NCBI GenBank assembly: GCA_900552095.1
Contig: URYM01000023.1
Span: forward strand, 1-13,593
From: an uncultured Blautia sp.
Lineage (GTDB): Bacteria > Bacillota > Clostridia > Lachnospirales > Lachnospiraceae
Length of the DNA: 13,593 nucleotides
Reading direction: 5' to 3'
How positions within the stretch are numbered: position 1 is the stretch's first letter; each line of letters begins with the position of its first letter. The notes beneath the pieces are model-generated. The model ran no database searches. It saw nothing but the letters and a program-made list of their open reading frames with translations, and was not told the DNA's origin. Below, one piece after another: positions 1-13,523 of this stretch. Made by a program: the position numbers and the translations under genes.

Positions 1-1106
1 CTCTGCCTCTGATCCAATTCCAGGAGAACCCGGCTTCTTGCCTTCTTTTCCGCCTCCGTCAGCTGCCCCTCCATGGCCGCCGCCTTCGTCCCTTCTCTGC
101 GGGAGTATGGGAAGATGTGGGTCTCGAAGAATCCGATCCGCTCTACAAAACTTCTGGACTCCTCAAAATCTTCCTCCGTCTCCCCCGGAAAGCCCGTGAT
201 CACATCTGTAGTCAGTGCCGGCCTGTCATAATATTTCCGAAGAATACGGCAGCACGCTTCATACTCTTTTGCCGTGTATCTGCGGTTCATCGCCTTCAGT
301 GTCCTGCTGCAGCCGCTCTGCAGAGAAAGGTGAAAATGCGGACAGATCTTCGGCAGTTCTGCAATCGCCGCTGCAAACTCCTCTGTCACGATCCGGGGTT
401 CCAGAGATCCCAGGCGGATCCGGCTGATCCCTTCGACCTGATGTACTGCCTGAATCAGGCTCAGAAGAGTCTCCTTTCTCTCCTCAGGAAAATCTACTCC
501 GTAAGAACTCAGGTGAATCCCTGTAAGAACTACTTCCTGATAGCCATTCCCCGCCAGAAGTTCCACTTCCCTGCAGATCTCCTCCTTCTTCCGGCTGCGC
601 ACCCTTCCTCTTGTATAAGGAATAATACAGTAACTGCAGAACTGATTGCAGCCGTCCTGCACCTTGATATACGCTCTGGTATGCTCCGCCGTCCTGGTGA
701 TGGAGAGTTCTTCATATTCATTCGTCCTGTTAATGTCGATCACCCGGCTGGCATGACGGCTCTCCCAGGCCTCCTCCAGTACAGAGACAATTTCCTTTTT
801 CTTATTATTACCCACGATCACGTCCACCATCTCATCGGCTTCCAGCTTATCCTGTCCATCCTGCACATAACAGCCTGCCGCCACAACCAGTGCCTGCGGA
901 TTCATCTTTTTGGCCTTATGCAGCATCTGACGGGATTTCCGATCCGCAATATTTGTCACCGTACACGTATTGATAATATAAGCATCCGCGCCCGGAGCAA
1001 AAGGAACAATCTCATATCCGGCCGCTTCCAGCTGCTGCTGCATTGCTTCCAGTTCATACGCGTTTACCTTGCACCCCAGATTGTGCAGCGCAATTTTTTT
1101 CTTCAC
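1..1106 (-). CDS. mtaB: tRNA t6A37 C2-methylthiotransferase MtaB, C-terminus cut by window edge
   Basis: Radical-SAM enzyme that adds a methylthio group to C2 of t6A37 in ANN-decoding tRNAs, giving ms2t6A; cytoplasmic. I translated the open minus-strand frame by hand: 368 codons are present and it runs off the left edge without a stop. The N-terminal methylthiotransferase domain shows its three cluster cysteines in LGCKVN (C12), NTCTVTN (C48) and AAGC (C79). The radical-SAM CxxxCxxC is CNQFCSYC (C153, C157, C160), followed by IIPYTRGR. Later motifs include LGSLEPR and HLSLQSG. The LGCKVN/NTCTVTN signature fits MtaB rather than MiaB or RimO. Family members have about 430-450 residues, so the missing part is essentially the C-terminal TRAM domain. 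The start is GTG, with AGGAG at 1113-1117 six nt upstream. The gene is divergent from the HPr-like gene across about 94 bp. In Bacillus subtilis mtaB directly follows prmA-rsmE; here it is nearby but separated from them. Confidence 0.95.
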   Translation of the reverse strand, partial: MKKKIALHNLGCKVNAYELEAMQQQLEAAGYEIVPFAPGADAYIINTCTVTNIADRKSRQMLHKAKKMNPQALVVAAGCYVQDGQDKLEADEMVDVIVGNNKKKEIVSVLEEAWESRHASRVIDINRTNEYEELSITRTAEHTRAYIKVQDGCNQFCSYCIIPYTRGRVRSRKKEEICREVELLAGNGYQEVVLTGIHLSSYGVDFPEERKETLLSLIQAVHQVEGISRIRLGSLEPRIVTEEFAAAIAELPKICPHFHLSLQSGCSRTLKAMNRRYTAKEYEACCRILRKYYDRPALTTDVITGFPGETEEDFEESRSFVERIGFFETHIFPYSRREGTKAAAMEGQLTEAEKKARSRVLLELDQRQ

Positions 1107-1126
1107 AATATTCTCCTCTCTTGCCC

Positions 1127-1155
1127 TTGACTTCTTTCCCTGATAACGGTAAAAT
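1127..1155 (+). promoter_or_regulatory. Sigma-A-type promoter of the HPr-like gene
   Basis: TTGACT (1127-1132) and TAAAAT (1150-1155) are separated by exactly 17 bp, a near-consensus housekeeping promoter. It lies about 45 bp upstream of the ATG at 1201, which has GGGAGGG (1188-1194) as ribosome binding site. The same 94-bp divergent region must also hold the mtaB promoter on the other strand, for which I see no clear pair of boxes. I see no obvious cre-like palindrome here. Confidence 0.65.
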
Positions 1156-1200
1156 AATCTTGAAAAAACTATAATTTACCTACAATAGGGAGGGTCTTTT

Positions 1201-1437
1201 ATGAAAACAGTACAGATATCTTTAAATTCTATTGATAAAGTAAAATCTTTCGTAAATTCTATTTCAAAATTCGACTTTGATTTCGATCTGATCTCCGGAA
1301 GATACGTCATCGACGCAAAATCCATCATGGGTATCTTCAGCCTGGATCTGTCCAAACCCATCGATCTGAGCATCCACGCAGAGGGCGAACGTCTGGACGA
1401 AGTACTTCAGCTGCTGGATTCCTATCTTGTAAAATAA
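1201..1437 (+). CDS. HPr-like protein lacking the catalytic histidine
   Basis: This 78-residue protein has the size of the PTS phosphocarrier HPr. The best match is KSIMGIFSLDL (residues 40-50), which corresponds to the HPr segment around regulatory Ser46 (KSIMGVMSL), so Ser41 would be the HPr kinase/phosphorylase site. The segment that should carry the phosphoryl-accepting His15 and Arg17 (GIHARPA in HPr) instead reads NSIDKVK: Ser10 takes the His position and Asp12 the Arg position. It therefore cannot act as a normal PTS phosphate carrier. B. subtilis Crh also lacks His15 and keeps Ser46, but this protein is more diverged. A Crh-like regulatory role is an inference. It is a single gene with its own promoter and strong ribosome binding site, convergent with thiI and ending before a shared terminator. 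Confidence 0.85.
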   Translation: MKTVQISLNSIDKVKSFVNSISKFDFDFDLISGRYVIDAKSIMGIFSLDLSKPIDLSIHAEGERLDEVLQLLDSYLVK

Positions 1438-5688: not shown

Positions 5689-5717
5689 ATCATACACGAA
5701 TCTTTCTTTTCTGTAAA
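5689..5717 (-). promoter_or_regulatory. Sigma-A-type promoter of the prmA operon
   Basis: Read on the minus strand, TTTACA (5712-5717) and TATGAT (5689-5694) are 17 bp apart. This predicts a start near 5682 and a leader of about 33 nt before the prmA ATG. The -35 box sits only three bp beyond the terminator stem of the upstream unit, so the two operons are packed with no spare DNA. Confidence 0.65.
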
Positions 5718-5720
5718 GGA

Positions 5721-5755
5721 AAACTGCCGCCCCTTTCTCATCCGGGCGGCAGTTT
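5721..5755 (-). terminator. Intrinsic terminator after the GG-leader peptide gene
   Basis: A 12-bp GC-rich stem, AAACTGCCGCCC (5721-5732) with GGGCGGCAGTTT (5744-5755), has an 11-nt loop. On the minus strand it is followed by TTTTCCTTT. It starts 14 nt after the small peptide stop codon and ends the giant-protein/peptide transcript before the prmA promoter. The plus-strand side is also T-rich (GTTCCTTCTTT), but no plus-strand gene arrives there. Confidence 0.85.
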
Positions 5756-5769
5756 GTTCCTTCTTTCGT

Positions 5770-5916
5770 CTACACTCTCTCTTTTACACTTTCCGTGATA
5801 TCATGAGTCTTGGTTACTACAGTATCCCGCAGCCCTCTTCCTCCGCTGACTTCTTCCAGCTCATCCAGTTCCAGCTCCTGTACTTCCGGCACTTCTTTTT
5901 CTTTCTTTTCTTCCAT
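5770..5916 (-). CDS. 48-aa peptide with a double-glycine leader, coupled to the giant surface protein gene
   Basis: Small gene of 48 codons (ATG 5916, TAG 5770-5772). Residues 1-26 form a highly acidic leader ending LELDELEEVSGG. Counting back from the Gly-Gly, it has Leu at -12, Glu at -8, Leu at -7, Val at -4 and Gly at -2 and -1. This is the consensus cut by C39 peptidases of ABC exporters for bacteriocins, some RiPPs and signalling peptides. The remaining 22-residue core (27-48) begins RGLRDTVVTK and ends VKERV. It is charged, has four Thr and one Ser, and has no Cys, so lanthionines are impossible. The AAGGAG at 5925-5930 lies eight nt upstream, inside the last codons of the giant gene, whose stop is two nt before this ATG. 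A terminator follows. No exporter or modification enzyme is in the window. I do not recognise the core; it could also be an unprocessed cytoplasmic acidic peptide. Confidence 0.75.
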   Translation of the reverse strand: MEEKKEKEVPEVQELELDELEEVSGGRGLRDTVVTKTHDITESVKERV

Positions 5917-5918
5917 TT

Positions 5919-8900
5919 TTAATACTCCTTTTTCTTCTTTTTGTAAATGATCAGTCCGCCTCCCGCTGCCAGCGCTGCCGCCAGAAGAAGGATCCAGACA
6001 AGGATCTGCACATTATTTCCCGTGTCTGCATTGTCACCGCTGCCCGGTTTGTTGGAAGAGCCTCCGCCGCTTCCGCTGCCGCCGTCTCCCTGATCCGGAG
6101 TATCTGTGGGTTCCGGCGTGGGGGTAATCTCACTTCCCGGTTCTCCCTGCTGTACGTCAATTTCCATGGAAGCCGTAAGGAATGCATCGCTGGTCAACGT
6201 AAGCATATTATTTCCTTCTCTTCCATTTCCTTTTTCTTCCAGCTCGATTTCCGGACTCTTCGGTTTTAACACTGCCGTCAGGGTCGTCTTTCCCGTCTGC
6301 AGTCCCCGGATCATTCCATTTGCATCCACTTCTGCAATTTCAGGATCTGCTGTACTCCACAGAATCTCCAGATTATAATTGGTAAGCGTGGTAAATTCAT
6401 CAAATTTCATCAATTCAGAAGCCACACTGGCGGAAACAGATTTATATTCTCCTGTCTTTACTTCCAGAGTCTTTCCGTCCTCCAGCGTGATGCCGGTAAT
6501 GCTGCGGATCCGCTCCATATCGGCCGCCGGAGTCCTTCTCTCCAGAGAAGCCGACGTCATCCCGCCGGTCGCTGCCACTGCATACAGCGTCAGTTTTTCC
6601 ACCGCATCTCCTGCGGATTCTTCTGCACTGTCCGTATAAGCCATAAACATATCGTCTGTGACTGCAAGCTCTGTGCTTAAGGTTACTTTCTCTCCCGGCG
6701 CAAGGGGCGGCACGCTTACCGTGGCAAGCGCTTCTCCTTCTGCGGTGGCTGAAATCTTAACCTCCTGCTCCGCCACTGTGACTCCGGAAGAATTCATCAT
6801 CTCAAATTCTGCCGTCACGCTGTCCCGGCTTGTCTCCTGCGTCAGTTCCATATTACTTAAGGTTAAAGAAACAGGGATCTCACCGCTTTCACTGATCGAG
6901 TCGATGACCGTTTCGCCTGACTTAAGCTCTGCTGTCACGCCCCACTCCTTCTGGCCTTCCGGCACCTGGAATGTGAACGAATAAACGCCGCTCTGTCCGC
7001 TGTAAAATTCCTCAAAAGATTCATTTAACAGCTCTGTTCCCGCCTGATCCTTCACAACCAGCTGAAGATTCTCTGCATCCGCAAAGCCTTCATTTCTCAG
7101 AGAAATCCGTCCTCCGTTTTCCCCTTCGATCACATCGCTGATTTCCAGCTGTTCCAGCACAGGCCGGCTGTCCGGAACTGCTTTAAAGCTTACCAGATCA
7201 CAGCCCGTCCGCGGTGTGGAGGAAGCGGTATCTTCTGCCTCGTTTTTCGATGCCATCACTACCAGATTTCCGCTGTCATCCACCGCAAAATCCACATTTC
7301 CATAAATTGCTTCCGCTTCGGTTACCCGCGTTCTTCCGCTCCAGGTTCCCTGCTGCAGGCGGCTTCCATAGATCTGGGTCTGCGTGCTCTGATTCTCCGC
7401 CAGTTCTGCCTCCGGGCTGTGAGGATCAATTCCCTCTTTCAGCATGGGGGCACTCTCTGTCCACAAAAGATAGGTCGCAGAGTTGTCCGCACTGGTATGA
7501 ATGTCAAAGCTGCTGATGGCACGGCCGGTGTTCTGATCTTTTTCCGCGTCCTCTGTGACATCTGCATAAGACTGGATCACATAAGGAGGCACATAACCGC
7601 TGTCTTTTGACTTATTCAGGTAATAAAATTCCTGACCTGCCGCCTCGCCTTTGATATACGCGCCCAGGCCTACAATACTGCTGAGGTTTAACACAGAAAT
7701 CTGTCCTTCCGACTGATAAGCCAGAAGGGTTCCCTGATCGGAACGGGACAATTTCACACTGCTCTCCTCTACTTTATTGGAGGTAATGATGACCGGATGC
7801 ATAAAGATATCATCCTTGTAATCATAGAACTGGATATACACATCCCTGTCTTCGGAGGTAGCGCGCACACCATCTTTATCAAAAATGTATGCGAAAATCG
7901 CCAGCCCGTAATAGGTAATCACATCCGTGTCAACCACCAGTCCCTCATTCTGTCCGGAAGTGGGCGGAATGATCGTGGGCTCTTCGGTCCAGTACCCGTC
8001 TTCATCAAGACTCTCCTCCACCGTAATGGCCGGGGGCAGATTCAGGAATCCCTGTCCGTACCAGTTTTCCTCATACTGAGCAAAACTCTCCTCCGTAACC
8101 ATGCCGGATTCAATAATGGCCTGCTTTTCTTTCTCTGTATAAGTATGACGCCAGGTTTCATTTTCAAAATCATAGAACTGATATGCCATCAGGCTGTACG
8201 GATAAATCGCATCTCCCACAACGCCCTCTGCATTGTCTGTCGCTTCATACTCATTCTTTGCATAGTACATCAGCATACGCTGCTGCTCACCATCGCTGTA
8301 GTAGGAAATCTTTGGCTCCACATCGGCGCAGAAATCTTCCTCGGTCGTCTTGGTCGCTTCCTGAATTTCCCCAAAGGTCTGTTTCTCTTTGTCGAAAATT
8401 GCCGTGTGAATATTTCTTGCGGAAAGCATCGTCAGCAGGTTCTCACCGGAAGCAAATTCCCGGTCTGCCGCAGACCAGGCTACCATCAGTCTGTTATCAC
8501 CCATTTCGGAGATTACCGGAGAATCATCCAGCATACCGTCATTTTCCAGCAGTTTCGGCTCACACCAGGTTTCATTTTCGTAAATGGTGTAATACAACGC
8601 CATCTGGTTTTCTGATACCGGACGGGACGTATCCACATCCAGGTAAACAGCCAGCATCTTATTTCCTCCCAGATTGGCCATCTGTACATCCGGCATCGTA
8701 TAATTGCCTTTGCGCAGAACCATTTCCTGAAGACCGGAGACTGCTGCCCGCGCCGCGCCGCTGTTCCAGCCGCTGCGCTCATTTAAATAGCTTCGATCTT
8801 CTGCCGTAAACGTATCTACGCTGTCATAAAGAGCCGTATCATCCGACATGGCTGCTAAGAGTGCCTGACTCGCGGATTTGCCGCCACTTAAGTCAATATC

Positions 8901-11900
8901 TGCCATATTGTAATCCCAGCTCTTGCTAAGACCCAGGATCTTAATGTGCAGACCGCCGGTCAGCTTTAATACCTGTGAATTCTGATGCGTCTCATCCGGA
9001 TTTGCATAATACTTCAGATCAAACAGAGCGGTCGCATGAAGTCCCACACTGGTGCTCAGAAGCGAAAATCCCACATCTCCCGCCAGCGTCAGCTTCGGTT
9101 TCACGACAAATTCCCCGTAGAAATCCAGCTGCCGGTCTTCATTATCCATGTCAGAATCAAAAATATCGATCTTACGGATACCGTCTGTCTCGGTTCCCCA
9201 ATCAGAGATGTAGAGTTTCTCATCTCCTCTCTGGCGCACTTCCAGCATCACGCTGCTGGTGTCCACACCGGCCCCCACTGTGATGGTCACATCAAGGCCG
9301 ATCGGGGTGGCAAAGACAAATTTCACATCCGCTCCGCCGGTCACATCCGCTGCCAGCATCATGCTTGCAAAGTACCACTGCGCCTCCTCATTGTCATAAT
9401 TCAGCTGAATGGTCAGATTAAAGCCCAAATCTACGGAAGCGTTCACCGCCATCGTAACCTTGGTCGTCTTCTTCTCCTCTGCGCTGGTCACCGCATTTTG
9501 ATAAGCGGTCTCCTTTGCCTCCAGATCCGTTGCTGCAGCCTCTACTGCCTTCTTCTTATCATCCGCTTTTAACAGCAGTACTTCTTTCTTGGCCGGATCT
9601 GTCTCGTTGGCATACGCTTCACTTGCCTCCTCCAGCTCTTTCTGAGCCGTCTCAAGACCGGTTCGCGCCTCTTCTTTCGCCAGCGCCGTTCCTGTAACAC
9701 TGCCTGCCGGAATCTGATCTTCCTGGGGCTGCTCTTCGCCGTCCTCGCTGTCGTAAGCCTTCTCAAACCGATCGCTGACAGAGATTAACTTGACTCTGTA
9801 TTTTGCTCCCGTTTTTGCTTCTTTCAGGATCGTATCCGCCACATACTCACTGGAATCCATATTTCCGTCCCAGTTCATTCCGAAAAGGGCATTGATATTT
9901 CCCAAAATAGAAGCTGCACTGGCCGTAATCTTAAAGCTGTTCAGGAAGCTGATCGCGCCCAGGCCTTTGAGCACGGTAATTCCCGTCTCGTGTTCATAAT
10001 ATCCCACATCATTCTGATCCAGGAACTGCACCGTCACCCGGCTGCCCGGCTCTAAAATAACAGGTGAGCCTTCTCCCTGGTTGATGTTGCTGGGATTAAA
10101 GCTGAACTTAAATGTTCCGCTGTTCTTTGTCTGCTCGGTTTCTTCCTGCTCTGCCCAGATCTCCTGACCATAGGAAGATCCGTCCTTTTTATAAAAGCGC
10201 AGAACTGCTTTTGTGGGCTGAACCGCCGGAGTCTCCCCTGCCGCCGACACCGTCAGCACATAATCGATGTCTCCGGAAACAACCTCTGCTCCTGCTGTCG
10301 ATCCCCCGTCTTTCCGGGCCAGGCTTCCGCCCACCCGTTTGATTCCGGTGTAGGCATCCAGCTTCGGACGTTTGGACACCTCCGGATTCTGAATGAAGTT
10401 ATAGCTGACGCCATTATAAGATACCGCCACCATCACATAGTCTCTGGGCTCCATCGTCGGATCTTCAATGTCATATTTTCCATTTTCATCCGTCTGCACC
10501 ATGATCCCATTTGCAGTGACCGTCGCTCCGGCCAGCACTTTGTCCGGAATCGTCTCTCCGGTCACAAAAGCGGTATCCCGGATAAAGAGCGTTCCCCGCA
10601 GCGGGGAAAGATCCTCCGGCTCTGACTGAATGAACTCATAATTCAAAAGCGTCTCCGTAAGCTTCGGCGTAAAGGTGAGTATATTTCCCGTCACCGGAGT
10701 CATCGGTGTGTAACCGCTGTCTTCCAGCGCCTTTACTTCCTCGTCGTCAAGCATTCCATCCCCGTCTGTATCTCCGGTTCTCTCATACCAGACTGTTTTA
10801 TATCCCTCCTGCGTCAGCGCCGAAATCGCCAAAGGCTGGAATTTGGCGGCGCCCAGGATCGTCATCGGAGTCTCCGGATCTCCGGCCACCCCTTCGCCCT
10901 CTTCCGGAATATAAATTACGCTGCCCGGGAAAGTCAGAATCTCATTTCCCTCCTCGTCTTTGCCCGGGATCTTATCCAGGTTCGCCCCATTCTTTTTCGC
11001 CGTCACCTGAACTTTGGGGGCTTCCAGCTGTACATAGACAAACGTATCTTTCTGCGGAGTCAGTTCCATTTCTTCCGGCATCACCGCATTTCGCTGTGTA
11101 CTTGTCAGGTCTTTCCAGCTGTACGTTTCCCCGTTCACCACACAGTCCCGGCCTTTTCCGGCTTTGATCTGGCTTTCCAGCGTACCCCTGATGGAAAGGT
11201 TGTCCATCACACCTGCTTCAATGCGGCTGACTGCCTTGTCCTGCCCTTTTGCCACCGCAGAAACACGCACACAGTCCAGCGCCTTACAGCTGATCATCTG
11301 GCCGGCATTTCCGCTGGTATAAGAATACTGCGCTCCCTCTGTGGAGGTATTTGCAAGATAAACGCTGGTCTCTTTTACCTTGAATACCGGATACATCGTA
11401 AATGTATTATTGTGGAGATAATCTTTATATTTATTGAGAAAATCTTTGGTAAACGTGATCTGCGATAATTTTAATACGTCGCTTTTTTTCTTTCCATTTA
11501 CCAGTCTTACCCCTTCCAACACCGCATTTTCCCCGCTTACCGGCACGCCAAGAGAATTTTTCTCCCCGCTGTACTGTACCGGAGCAAATCCGACGTTAGA
11601 AGACGTTTTTCTCAGACGCAGCTCATTGCCCGCATCGTTGCTGGCGCTTGCAAATTTCAGCTCACCCAGCTTGATCCTTTTCTTGCTCTCTGCATCCCCC
11701 GGCGCCTGATTCCCCGCATATCCGTACCACTGCTCCACATAGGAATTCTGATCCTCCACGGAGTCATTATTGATCACATAGGAATACTCCGGATAGCTGA
11801 CTTTCACGCTGTTGACTTTTACCGTCGTATAATCGTTCTTCCCGAGGTTTCCAAAACAAATGGAAATGTGCCTGTTCGTCCCTCTCGCCTTATCCTCCAG

Positions 11901-13523
11901 GGGAATTTCCACCGTCACATTATTCATGTTTTTTGTCTTATCGGGAAGTCTATAGATCTGAAGAATCTTGAATCCTTCCTGGATACACACTTCCAGGTAG
12001 CCTTCCTCGCTGCTGAACCAGCGATCTTCACAATCCACCTCTTCCTTCCATTTTCTGCCGCCTCCGCTGGACAGGTTCAGCGTAACCTTATCTGCCATTG
12101 TCAGATCCATACTGTTCCGCGAAGTGACATTAAATGACCCGGAGCTCTTGATCCCCCTGACTTCCTTTGTGCCGGAATCAAAGGAAACGCTCTCCTCACC
12201 GGAACTTTTCTCTTCTGCCAGGACAGCTTCTTCGGGCGTCTCTACGATATGTACCGCAACCACTTTCTGGTCTTCTGCGATCTGGCCACCTTTTGCTTCC
12301 AGTCCCACATAAAACACCCTCTCTTCTCCTCTGTCCTCATTTGGCAGAATGGGAATGCGAAGCGTCTCCTCGGTATCTCCCTGTGAAAAGACCAGCTCTT
12401 TTTGTGTTTCTGTATAGTCTGCACCTGCAATAGCTGTATCGCCGCCAGTTGCCGCGTAGACTGCTGCAAACTGCTCCACTCCGGAAGTGCGGTTCACACG
12501 GATTTCTGCATATGCTTCGTCTTCACTCACATAAACATCCGTACTCTCCACACCAAAAATCTGCGGTTCTTTTTCATCATTATCTGCAATATTTAAATAT
12601 CCCGTATTGCTGTCTCCCGGCCCGGCTCCCTGCGCCTGATACAGAAGAAACATCACCTGCTCTTCTCCCTCGCTCAGCTCGTCGTCCAGAAGTTCAATTT
12701 CCACTACTTTTTTATACTCACCAGGGGCAAAGGTAAAGGTATAGCCCGTTCCGGAGATCAGATCTGCCAGACTTTCCATTTCTTCCTGGCTCTTCTGGGA
12801 CATCTCTTCCACTCTCTTGGCCTGCGCTTCTGTTCCCTCTGTCTCTCTCCAGTTTAATTTGACCGAATCCTGATTCAGGAAAATGTCCCTGGCGGCCTGG
12901 AGAGAACTCTTGCCTTCCGGAACCTGATACTCGGCTCCGTCTGCAAAATTTTCATAAGTTCCGGGAGCCTCTGTAGGCGTTGTCTCCGGTTCCTGTTTTG
13001 CCTCTTCTTCTGGCTCCTTGGTCGGCTCCTCCTCCGGTTTTAAGCCTGTATCTGCCTCTTCTTTCAGCGCATCCGCTTCTTCCTGCTCTTTCTGTTCCTC
13101 CAGCTCAGCAGCTTCCTCCTCGCCGATCGCCTCATACTGATCCATAAGAGTTCCAGATTCATCCTCTTTCCGGAGCGTCTGCGATAAAAATGCCCCTTCT
13201 TTTACTGTCAGTATATAATCCTTGCCGTAGAGGGCGGATACATCCACCGCTTTGAGCGAAACGCGGGCTTCCTGATCTCTGGCTCCCTGACGAAGAATCG
13301 TCAGTTCCATCTTCTCTCCCTCTGTTCCGGTAAGCTGCGGCTCACCAATCGTAAAGGCCCCTTCCGGATATTGCCCGGAAGCATCCAGAAGAGTCTGCGC
13401 CAGCGCTTCTTCTTCGGCCTGTTCTTCTGCCCAGGCCTCAACCAGCGGGCCGGTGTCTGAAAGAAGCATGGCACCGCACAGACTCAGCGCCAGCACAGAC
13501 TTTTTTAACTGTCTCTTTTTCAC
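5919..13523 (-). CDS. Giant secreted, wall-anchored multidomain surface protein (Calx-beta, beta-propeller, CARDB, Big2)
   Basis: Predicted 2,534-residue extracellular protein; precise function unknown. In order, it has a signal peptide (1-32, likely cut after AWA) and a Calx-beta module (about 57-313) interrupted by a Glu/Pro-rich insert (about 104-256). A second Calx-beta module (about 322-427) and unassigned beta-rich sequence (445-900) follow. Next are an EF-hand-type loop DTDGDGMLDDEE (918-929), a carboxypeptidase-regulatory-like module (about 974-1046) and a coiled coil (1279-1352). Then come a block of long amphipathic strands (1353-1545), a probable seven-bladed propeller (about 1605-2095), two CARDB-like modules (about 2120-2325) and a Big2-like module (about 2340-2456). 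The C-terminus has a TPTPEPTD/Gly-Ser linker, NADTG (2498-2502), a membrane segment (about 2504-2527) and KKKKKEY. I see no catalytic signature. The architecture suggests adhesion or ligand binding at the cell surface. The start is GTG, with GGGAGGAG (13530-13537) six nt upstream. It is transcribed together with the GG-leader peptide gene. Confidence 0.93.
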   Translation of the reverse strand: MKKRQLKKSVLALSLCGAMLLSDTGPLVEAWAEEQAEEEALAQTLLDASGQYPEGAFTIGEPQLTGTEGEKMELTILRQGARDQEARVSLKAVDVSALYGKDYILTVKEGAFLSQTLRKEDESGTLMDQYEAIGEEEAAELEEQKEQEEADALKEEADTGLKPEEEPTKEPEEEAKQEPETTPTEAPGTYENFADGAEYQVPEGKSSLQAARDIFLNQDSVKLNWRETEGTEAQAKRVEEMSQKSQEEMESLADLISGTGYTFTFAPGEYKKVVEIELLDDELSEGEEQVMFLLYQAQGAGPGDSNTGYLNIADNDEKEPQIFGVESTDVYVSEDEAYAEIRVNRTSGVEQFAAVYAATGGDTAIAGADYTETQKELVFSQGDTEETLRIPILPNEDRGEERVFYVGLEAKGGQIAEDQKVVAVHIVETPEEAVLAEEKSSGEESVSFDSGTKEVRGIKSSGSFNVTSRNSMDLTMADKVTLNLSSGGGRKWKEEVDCEDRWFSSEEGYLEVCIQEGFKILQIYRLPDKTKNMNNVTVEIPLEDKARGTNRHISICFGNLGKNDYTTVKVNSVKVSYPEYSYVINNDSVEDQNSYVEQWYGYAGNQAPGDAESKKRIKLGELKFASASNDAGNELRLRKTSSNVGFAPVQYSGEKNSLGVPVSGENAVLEGVRLVNGKKKSDVLKLSQITFTKDFLNKYKDYLHNNTFTMYPVFKVKETSVYLANTSTEGAQYSYTSGNAGQMISCKALDCVRVSAVAKGQDKAVSRIEAGVMDNLSIRGTLESQIKAGKGRDCVVNGETYSWKDLTSTQRNAVMPEEMELTPQKDTFVYVQLEAPKVQVTAKKNGANLDKIPGKDEEGNEILTFPGSVIYIPEEGEGVAGDPETPMTILGAAKFQPLAISALTQEGYKTVWYERTGDTDGDGMLDDEEVKALEDSGYTPMTPVTGNILTFTPKLTETLLNYEFIQSEPEDLSPLRGTLFIRDTAFVTGETIPDKVLAGATVTANGIMVQTDENGKYDIEDPTMEPRDYVMVAVSYNGVSYNFIQNPEVSKRPKLDAYTGIKRVGGSLARKDGGSTAGAEVVSGDIDYVLTVSAAGETPAVQPTKAVLRFYKKDGSSYGQEIWAEQEETEQTKNSGTFKFSFNPSNINQGEGSPVILEPGSRVTVQFLDQNDVGYYEHETGITVLKGLGAISFLNSFKITASAASILGNINALFGMNWDGNMDSSEYVADTILKEAKTGAKYRVKLISVSDRFEKAYDSEDGEEQPQEDQIPAGSVTGTALAKEEARTGLETAQKELEEASEAYANETDPAKKEVLLLKADDKKKAVEAAATDLEAKETAYQNAVTSAEEKKTTKVTMAVNASVDLGFNLTIQLNYDNEEAQWYFASMMLAADVTGGADVKFVFATPIGLDVTITVGAGVDTSSVMLEVRQRGDEKLYISDWGTETDGIRKIDIFDSDMDNEDRQLDFYGEFVVKPKLTLAGDVGFSLLSTSVGLHATALFDLKYYANPDETHQNSQVLKLTGGLHIKILGLSKSWDYNMADIDLSGGKSASQALLAAMSDDTALYDSVDTFTAEDRSYLNERSGWNSGAARAAVSGLQEMVLRKGNYTMPDVQMANLGGNKMLAVYLDVDTSRPVSENQMALYYTIYENETWCEPKLLENDGMLDDSPVISEMGDNRLMVAWSAADREFASGENLLTMLSARNIHTAIFDKEKQTFGEIQEATKTTEEDFCADVEPKISYYSDGEQQRMLMYYAKNEYEATDNAEGVVGDAIYPYSLMAYQFYDFENETWRHTYTEKEKQAIIESGMVTEESFAQYEENWYGQGFLNLPPAITVEESLDEDGYWTEEPTIIPPTSGQNEGLVVDTDVITYYGLAIFAYIFDKDGVRATSEDRDVYIQFYDYKDDIFMHPVIITSNKVEESSVKLSRSDQGTLLAYQSEGQISVLNLSSIVGLGAYIKGEAAGQEFYYLNKSKDSGYVPPYVIQSYADVTEDAEKDQNTGRAISSFDIHTSADNSATYLLWTESAPMLKEGIDPHSPEAELAENQSTQTQIYGSRLQQGTWSGRTRVTEAEAIYGNVDFAVDDSGNLVVMASKNEAEDTASSTPRTGCDLVSFKAVPDSRPVLEQLEISDVIEGENGGRISLRNEGFADAENLQLVVKDQAGTELLNESFEEFYSGQSGVYSFTFQVPEGQKEWGVTAELKSGETVIDSISESGEIPVSLTLSNMELTQETSRDSVTAEFEMMNSSGVTVAEQEVKISATAEGEALATVSVPPLAPGEKVTLSTELAVTDDMFMAYTDSAEESAGDAVEKLTLYAVAATGGMTSASLERRTPAADMERIRSITGITLEDGKTLEVKTGEYKSVSASVASELMKFDEFTTLTNYNLEILWSTADPEIAEVDANGMIRGLQTGKTTLTAVLKPKSPEIELEEKGNGREGNNMLTLTSDAFLTASMEIDVQQGEPGSEITPTPEPTDTPDQGDGGSGSGGGSSNKPGSGDNADTGNNVQILVWILLLAAALAAGGGLIIYKKKKKEY
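5925..5930 (-). promoter_or_regulatory. Ribosome binding site of the GG-leader peptide, inside the giant gene
   Basis: AAGGAG on the minus strand overlaps the final Lys and Glu codons of the giant gene and sits eight nt before the peptide ATG at 5916. With the giant stop codon (5919-5921) lying between them, terminating ribosomes would reach the small start directly. This predicts translational coupling and supports the small frame being a real gene. Confidence 0.7.
7239..8711 (-). repeat. Seven degenerate beta-propeller blade repeats in the giant protein
   Basis: Residues about 1605-2095 contain a recurring pattern of a short strand, a turn with D/G/N, then a strand of the type LxVxWx or MxVYx. 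Examples are PDVQMANLGGNKMLAVYL (1611-1628), SPVISEMGDNRLMVAWS (1668-1684), VEPKISYYSDGEQQRMLMYY (1735-1754), a weaker one near 1865-1885, SSVKLSRSDQGTLLAYQ (1921-1937), SFDIHTSADNSATYLLWTES (2004-2023) and NVDFAVDDSGNLVVMASK (2076-2093). Spacing is irregular, with a long insert between blades three and four. The fold is inferred from the pattern; sialidase-type Asp boxes are not evident. Confidence 0.5.

Follow-up and report, generated by a model that had tools for sequence, protein, structure and literature searches.

A 48-codon gene on the minus strand of a contig from an uncultured Blautia species is a conserved gene, predicted to encode a precursor of a double-glycine (GG) leader peptide family, and it directly follows the gene of a 2534-residue surface protein, hereafter the giant. 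The stretch of DNA analyzed, referred to as the window, comprises 13,593 nucleotides (nt) (GenBank assembly GCA_900552095.1, contig URYM01000023.1). Comparison of sequences established the conservation of the predicted precursor, the adjacency of its gene to genes of giants, and the presence of genes for a putative C39-type exporter in the same locus of relatives. The usual interpretation of GG peptides and their C39 exporters is that of bacteriocin or pheromone systems. The explanation we favor, to which we assign a probability of roughly 45%, is instead that a C39-exported, trimmed, and hydrophilic peptide works outside the cell together with the co-encoded giant.

The peptide gene and its family

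The peptide gene occupies positions 5770..5916 of the minus strand, with its ATG starting at 5916 and its stop codon at 5770-5772. The 48-residue precursor consists of the acidic 26-residue leader MEEKKEKEVPEVQELELDELEEVSGG (5839..5916, minus), which ends in VSGG, followed by the 22-residue core RGLRDTVVTKTHDITESVKERV (5773..5838, minus), which lacks Cys and would be the released peptide if a C39 peptidase cuts, as predicted, after G26. All six anchors of the GG leader of C39-processed peptides (L-12, E-8, L-7, V-4, G-2, and G-1) were present. The giant gene ends with a TAA at 5921-5919, leaving 2 nt before the peptide ATG, and an AAGGAG ribosome binding site, read directly at 5925..5930 (minus) within the last codons of the giant gene, is located 8 nt before the same ATG. 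A hairpin with a T-rich tail 3' of the peptide stop codon (5715..5763, minus; -29.1 kcal/mol, z -5.8) is a likely intrinsic terminator, and none of 200 shuffled sequences folded into an equally stable structure. The hairpin was not listed by a simple consensus terminator scan, probably because its loop is larger than the limit of the scan. The original prediction had described the frame with its six anchors, the Cys-free core of 22 residues, the ribosome binding site inside the giant gene, the 2-nt gap, and a terminator, without giving a strand; each of these features was recovered, on the minus strand. A chance open reading frame was ruled out by the existence of homologues and by a shuffle control, in which the strict GG motif was found in 0 of 28,183 short open reading frames (30-80 residues) from 200 mononucleotide shuffles, compared to one in the window.

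The protein database entry of the peptide represents 70 contigs. Three close homologues with 74-88% identity retained the leader, the Gly-Gly, and most of the core, with VSGGRGLR invariant among them and the peptide. A profile built from ten peptides detected 41 proteins in the protein database at E <= 10, 38 of them at E < 0.1, counting the rows of the query itself. Of these proteins, 31 were aligned with nine peptides from genomic loci, giving 40 rows, the window's peptide among them, of which 38 were distinct (two duplicate pairs). The ten proteins omitted (P0046-P0048 and P0050-P0056) were weaker, short, or extended matches, most of them without the core motif, and two rows (L105 and L110) do not start exactly at the start codon. 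Among the 38 distinct rows, the leader columns G25, G26, L20, and V23 were conserved in 38, 36 (with Ala in the other two), 37, and 34 rows, respectively. The original prediction depended on conservation of the leader and its Gly-Gly, and both, together with the anchors, were kept in the homologues.

Conservation was not confined to the leader. The core followed the motif I-[DST]-x5-[KRN]-[IV], in which I40, eight residues before the C-terminus, was found in 34 of the 38 distinct rows, Lys, Arg, or Asn at position 47 in all 38, and Ile or Val at position 48 in 32. The entropy of I40 (0.55 bits) equaled that of V-4, and the core was as conserved as the leader. Cores were 20-25 residues long and hydrophilic (mean grand average of hydropathy -0.70), near neutral on average, and free of Cys and Trp in all 40 rows. 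In the relative G321, the peptide gene is present twice in tandem, upstream of the giant gene (L083:474-635 and 1103-1264, plus strand). The copies differ in seven codons; the three resulting amino-acid changes are confined to the leader, so that the two cores are identical. This comparison, a small sample, points to selection on the core of the peptide.

Pairing of peptide and giant genes

The giant alone and the peptide profile alone were searched separately, and the results were then compared. A giant was called at E <= 1e-15, a threshold chosen after viewing the lists. For most genomes, no more than two candidates were scored in the search for giants, so that some may be missed. A peptide match was taken as full length when it reached model position 47 or 48 (the match in G523 begins at position 10). 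Matches confined to the leader were excluded from all counts; these made up 3 of the 9 matching genomes in the class sample (G061, G088, and G226), 17 of 20 in the family sample, and 13 of 19 in a further draw of 397 genomes. The labels Clostridia for the class and Lachnospiraceae-like for the family rest in part on three named loci and on ThiI identity.

In the class sample of 291 genomes, 18 carried a giant, and a full-length peptide was found in 6 of these 18 versus 0 of the 273 others (Fisher p 2e-8). In the Lachnospiraceae-like family sample of 200 genomes, the peptide was found in 3 of 5 giant genomes versus 0 of 195 others (Fisher p 8e-6). Both p values are indicative only, because the threshold was set post hoc and the genomes are related. 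The draw of 397 genomes from the same family yielded full-length peptides in six (G321, G404, G304, G578, G530, and G523). Altogether, the profile searches gave 13 peptide loci in 12 genomes, and the link between peptide and giant, which had been proposed from the coupling of the two genes in the window, recurred in these 12 other genomes.

At 11 of the 13 loci, the peptide gene abutted a giant homologous to that of the window or, at broken frames or contigs, the last piece of such a giant. The peptide followed the giant in G200 (after 26 nt), the first locus of G012 (4 nt), G024 (85 nt), G118 (44 nt), G182 (47 nt), G530 (18 nt), and G304 (19 nt), the piece in G304 matching the C-terminal part of other giants. 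It preceded the giant in G321 (the two copies described above), G404, G578, and the second locus of G012. Among the loci, the giant of G530 was nearest to that of the window (27% over 2,428 columns), and its core SMRNAVKSKTGDITSSIKSRI resembles the window's core. The core motif was common to genomes whose giants share 19-34% identity with the window's in the conserved part.

A scan of genome contigs with the window giant detected only three distant relatives (27-28%); no GG peptide was seen near the end of the giant at L001 and L002, and L003 ends at the contig edge. G002 was counted as peptide-free from the reading of L002 alone. G394 gave the nearest ThiI match (78%), and in its genus the peptide was found in 0 of 5 genomes, a result uninformative as a negative. 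For the closest giants (P0004-P0006) and the closest peptides (P0017-P0019), only protein sequences are available, and these stand outside the adjacency counts.

A second set of peptide, surface protein, and exporter genes, with a different core, was observed in G182 (peptide at L228:4848-5012, plus strand), where the order is an SLH protein, a GG peptide 22 nt later, a 1,120-residue protein with a signal-like start, a C39 ATP-binding cassette (ABC) gene, and a second ABC gene. Judged from this arrangement, the pairing of peptides and surface proteins may be broader than the present peptide family.

Exporter genes and the giant

The original prediction had named the surface protein as the only partner of the peptide. 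This did not hold in relatives, where an NHLM-type C39 exporter set was part of the locus. Of the 12 relatives with the peptide, 11 had a C39 exporter gene, an outcome in favor of the original prediction by its own check, and in a comparison of 20 giant genomes, C39 peptidase genes were present in 8 of 9 with the peptide versus 2 of 11 without it (p 0.005). At 8 of 13 loci (G200, both loci of G012, G321, G404, G304, G523, and G578), genes for a C39 ABC protein and for a second ABC protein lay close to the giant, where the giant pieces of G304 and G578 on two contigs were each taken as one gene; the contigs of G578 share 58 nt, and the joining in G304 was inferred from homology. The exporter set was located on another contig in G024, G107, and G530. 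We tried joining the exporter contig of G530 to its giant contig, and since the contig ends had no exact overlap, adjacency is not claimed for that genome.

The best agreement with the NHLM trio of HlyD, C39 ABC, and second ABC proteins was seen in G321, with bit scores (cut-offs in brackets) of 163.0 (156.2) for TIGR03794, 859.1 (853.3) for TIGR03796, and 706.4 (709.4), just below the cut-off, for TIGR03797. The corresponding proteins of G200 (121.0, 747.7, and 542.6 bits) were below all cut-offs, yet matched best to the same families. NHLM ABC1 was found over its full length in G578, G530 (with one in-frame stop), and G523. TIGR03796 reached at least 850 bits in 4 of 4 peptide genomes versus 2 of 40 other genomes, in a search that was not blind, the exporters of G304 and G523 being already known. 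Nine peptide genomes encode a long HlyD protein of about 300 residues with an adjoining Peripla_BP_6 protein; a shorter HlyD (74-165 residues) was found at the NHLM loci of G305, G315, and G449 and at two further loci of G523. G200 and the first locus of G012 share one gene order: binding protein, HlyD, C39 ABC, ABC, giant, and peptide. Given this order, and since only 70 nt of the window lie upstream of the giant, the exporter genes of the window strain could lie just outside the window. Genes of subtilase-family proteases were also observed near the peptide-giant locus of three genomes (L170:7939-9303, L209:14852-16765, and L223:2889-5162, all plus strand).

The giant gene extends over 5919..13523 (minus), starts with GTG, and encodes, judged by eye, a Sec-type signal sequence. 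Homologues of the giant were found at 98, 54, and 35% identity. The protein contains three Calx-beta stretches, the best at residues 316-411 (12291..12578, minus; PF03160, E 2.6e-21). Its conserved middle (7194-9506, minus) was modeled as a sheet-rich domain (residues about 1355-1545) and a beta-propeller (about residues 1612-2108; 7200..8690, minus), which models with a lectin- or sialidase-like fold. The C-terminal tail (5928..6023, minus) resembles a sorting signal, with NADTG, a hydrophobic stretch, and KKKKK. The claim that the giant is wall-anchored was fair but marginal: the tail scored above the cut-off of the NCBIfam LPXTG_anchor model (TIGR01167, 16.5 versus 15.9 bits), but below that of Pfam Gram_pos_anchor (13.6 versus 20 bits), and the motif is NADTG instead of LPXTG.

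The role of the peptide and comparison with known systems

In the favored explanation, an NHLM-type exporter, composed of a C39 peptidase ABC protein, a partner ABC protein, and an HlyD-like adaptor, would recognize the acidic leader, cut after Gly-Gly, and release an unmodified or lightly modified hydrophilic peptide of 20-25 residues. The giant would reach the surface by Sec, and the peptide would act with it in a surface complex for glycan binding or adhesion, serving as ligand, cofactor, or small subunit. Cleavage and export, an exporter encoded in the window's own genome, and an extracellular action on the giant are the parts of this scheme that we infer. A conserved core with a fixed spacing to the C-terminus, encoded next to giants, favors a specific binding partner outside the cell, for which the giant is the simplest candidate. 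A more specific proposal, which we put forward only tentatively and consider somewhat doubtful, is a two-part surface system of Clostridia, in which a Sec-exported lectin-like giant is served by a separate C39-trimmed peptide with a dedicated NHLM-type exporter, the peptide docking as an activating, capping, or sensing element.

Several observations weigh against a partnership of peptide and giant. The frame does not always follow a giant, a regularity that the original prediction had proposed as a check: no full-length peptide match was obtained for 12 of the 18 giant genomes of the class sample or for 2 of the 5 of the family sample, and where present the peptide sometimes precedes the giant. 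The two family members in question, G344 and G449, carry giants and C39 genes but no peptide match. In G182 the exporter lies megabases from the giant, and a C39 gene was not found in the 1.7 Mb assembly of G118. In G107, a 956-residue secreted protein is encoded between the giant and the peptide. In G523, the peptide lies ahead of a protein of 2,354 residues with beta-helix repeats, for which blastp gave no match to the window giant, and with this unrelated giant the conserved partner of the core may be something else. The idea that giants carry copies of the peptide core was rejected, with 0 matches to a core-like motif in 26 protein pieces.

The main rival to the favored explanation is that the core is a pheromone, exported by the C39 protein and sensed by a GHKL-type kinase and a LytTR regulator that turn on the giant operon at high density. 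Quorum-signaling peptides are exported by C39 transporters, according to the available text of PMC6363468. The locus is flanked by a LytTR response regulator in G404, G578, and G530, and in G578 a GHKL kinase neighbors this regulator; these regulators are more in keeping with a signal, and their count (3 of 13) is a lower bound, because the scan covered chosen neighbors only. Within the same neighbors, however, a histidine kinase was found at only 1 of 13 loci, and two loci had other regulators instead (LuxR-type in G024 and a sigma factor in G012). Pheromone cores usually diverge fast, whereas the core motif here is shared by genomes with the widely diverged giants described above. We regard a pheromone as unlikely, albeit as the alternative to be taken most seriously.

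It is improbable that the core is a bacteriocin-like antimicrobial peptide or toxin with the giant merely as a neighbor. The precursor did show a weak likeness to the type-A lantibiotics of Pfam (L_biotic_typeA, 20.0 bits over residues 1-39) and to lactobin/cerein bacteriocins (TIGR03949, 14.7 bits over residues 13-28), but both matches were below the curated cut-offs (21.7 and 21.5 bits), and the latter was almost confined to the leader. Membership in the lantibiotics was rejected on this score and on the absence of Cys from all 40 core rows, and membership in the class II bacteriocins on TIGR03949 and Bacteriocin_IIc (11.8 versus 27.1 bits). The hydrophilic, near-neutral composition of the cores and the tight association of the peptide with giants also speak against a toxin. 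Similarly improbable, in our judgment, is a core modified before export, as a new ribosomally synthesized and post-translationally modified peptide, for instance by a protein of about 460 residues encoded in the locus of three genomes, whose model (predicted local distance difference test score 69.6, from three sequences) resembles a class-I aminoacyl-tRNA synthetase. This protein was found in 3 of 12 peptide genomes by tblastn over the loci only, no core row contains Cys, and no known modification enzyme was seen among the selected neighbors scanned. The original prediction had offered a secreted signal, a toxin-like peptide, or a ligand or subunit of the surface protein, and the dissection of these readings narrows the choice without settling it, a bacteriocin having become less likely.

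GG-leader pheromones include the ComC/BlpC type. These share with the present family a short core, a GG leader, and, if the prediction holds, C39 export, and LytTR regulators occur near some of the loci studied here; they differ in that the present core motif is conserved across distant genomes, with a giant adjoining and a kinase at one locus only. PCAT1 is a single ABC protein rather than an NHLM set. Together with its substrate CtA in Clostridium thermocellum, it likewise represents a C39 ABC exporter with GG-leader cargo, with no giant surface protein mentioned in the available text (PMC6959990). MAM of Faecalibacterium is a GG-leader protein encoded beside a gene for a peptidase-containing ABC transporter (PCAT), with processing by PCAT proposed in silico, and is a component of the envelope (PMC12184118). 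Like the predicted peptide, it is a product with a GG leader, encoded alongside a C39 exporter by a gut Firmicute, that would be destined for the envelope and not for killing; unlike the cores of 20-25 residues here, it has 135 residues, is very abundant, and folds into a three-helix core, with no giant partner mentioned in the portion of the paper available. By analogy, MAM may serve as a precedent for an envelope component among GG-leader products encoded beside a PCAT. The MAM-like leader motif MMMPAN-x8-11-VxGG was absent from the peptide sequence.

If the peptide works with the giant, this export route would have a new role in gut bacteria, and a family of uncharacterized surface giants would gain a function. 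The GG-peptide and C39 machinery is tied to very large surface proteins across widely divergent genomes, with the core and not only the leader conserved, and among the papers listed by literature searches, none had a title or abstract on a pairing of GG-leader peptides with Calx-beta or SLH giants. Among the closest known systems is the NHLM trio (TIGR03794, TIGR03796, and TIGR03797), described with NHLP and Nif11-type precursors (Haft 2010, PMC2887384, as far as its available text goes), in which genes for an HlyD-like protein, a C39 ABC protein, and a second ABC protein are clustered with a GG-leader precursor. The precursor studied here differs in matching neither the nitrile-hydratase- nor the Nif11-type leader families (TIGR03793 and TIGR03798, no match at E <= 1 in NCBIfam), and no lanthionine or azole enzyme was seen among the neighbors scanned. 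In addition, the set described here comprises a Sec-type surface giant, joined in nine genomes by the Peripla_BP_6 protein. Together, the locus combines known export machinery with an undescribed peptide family and giant surface proteins.
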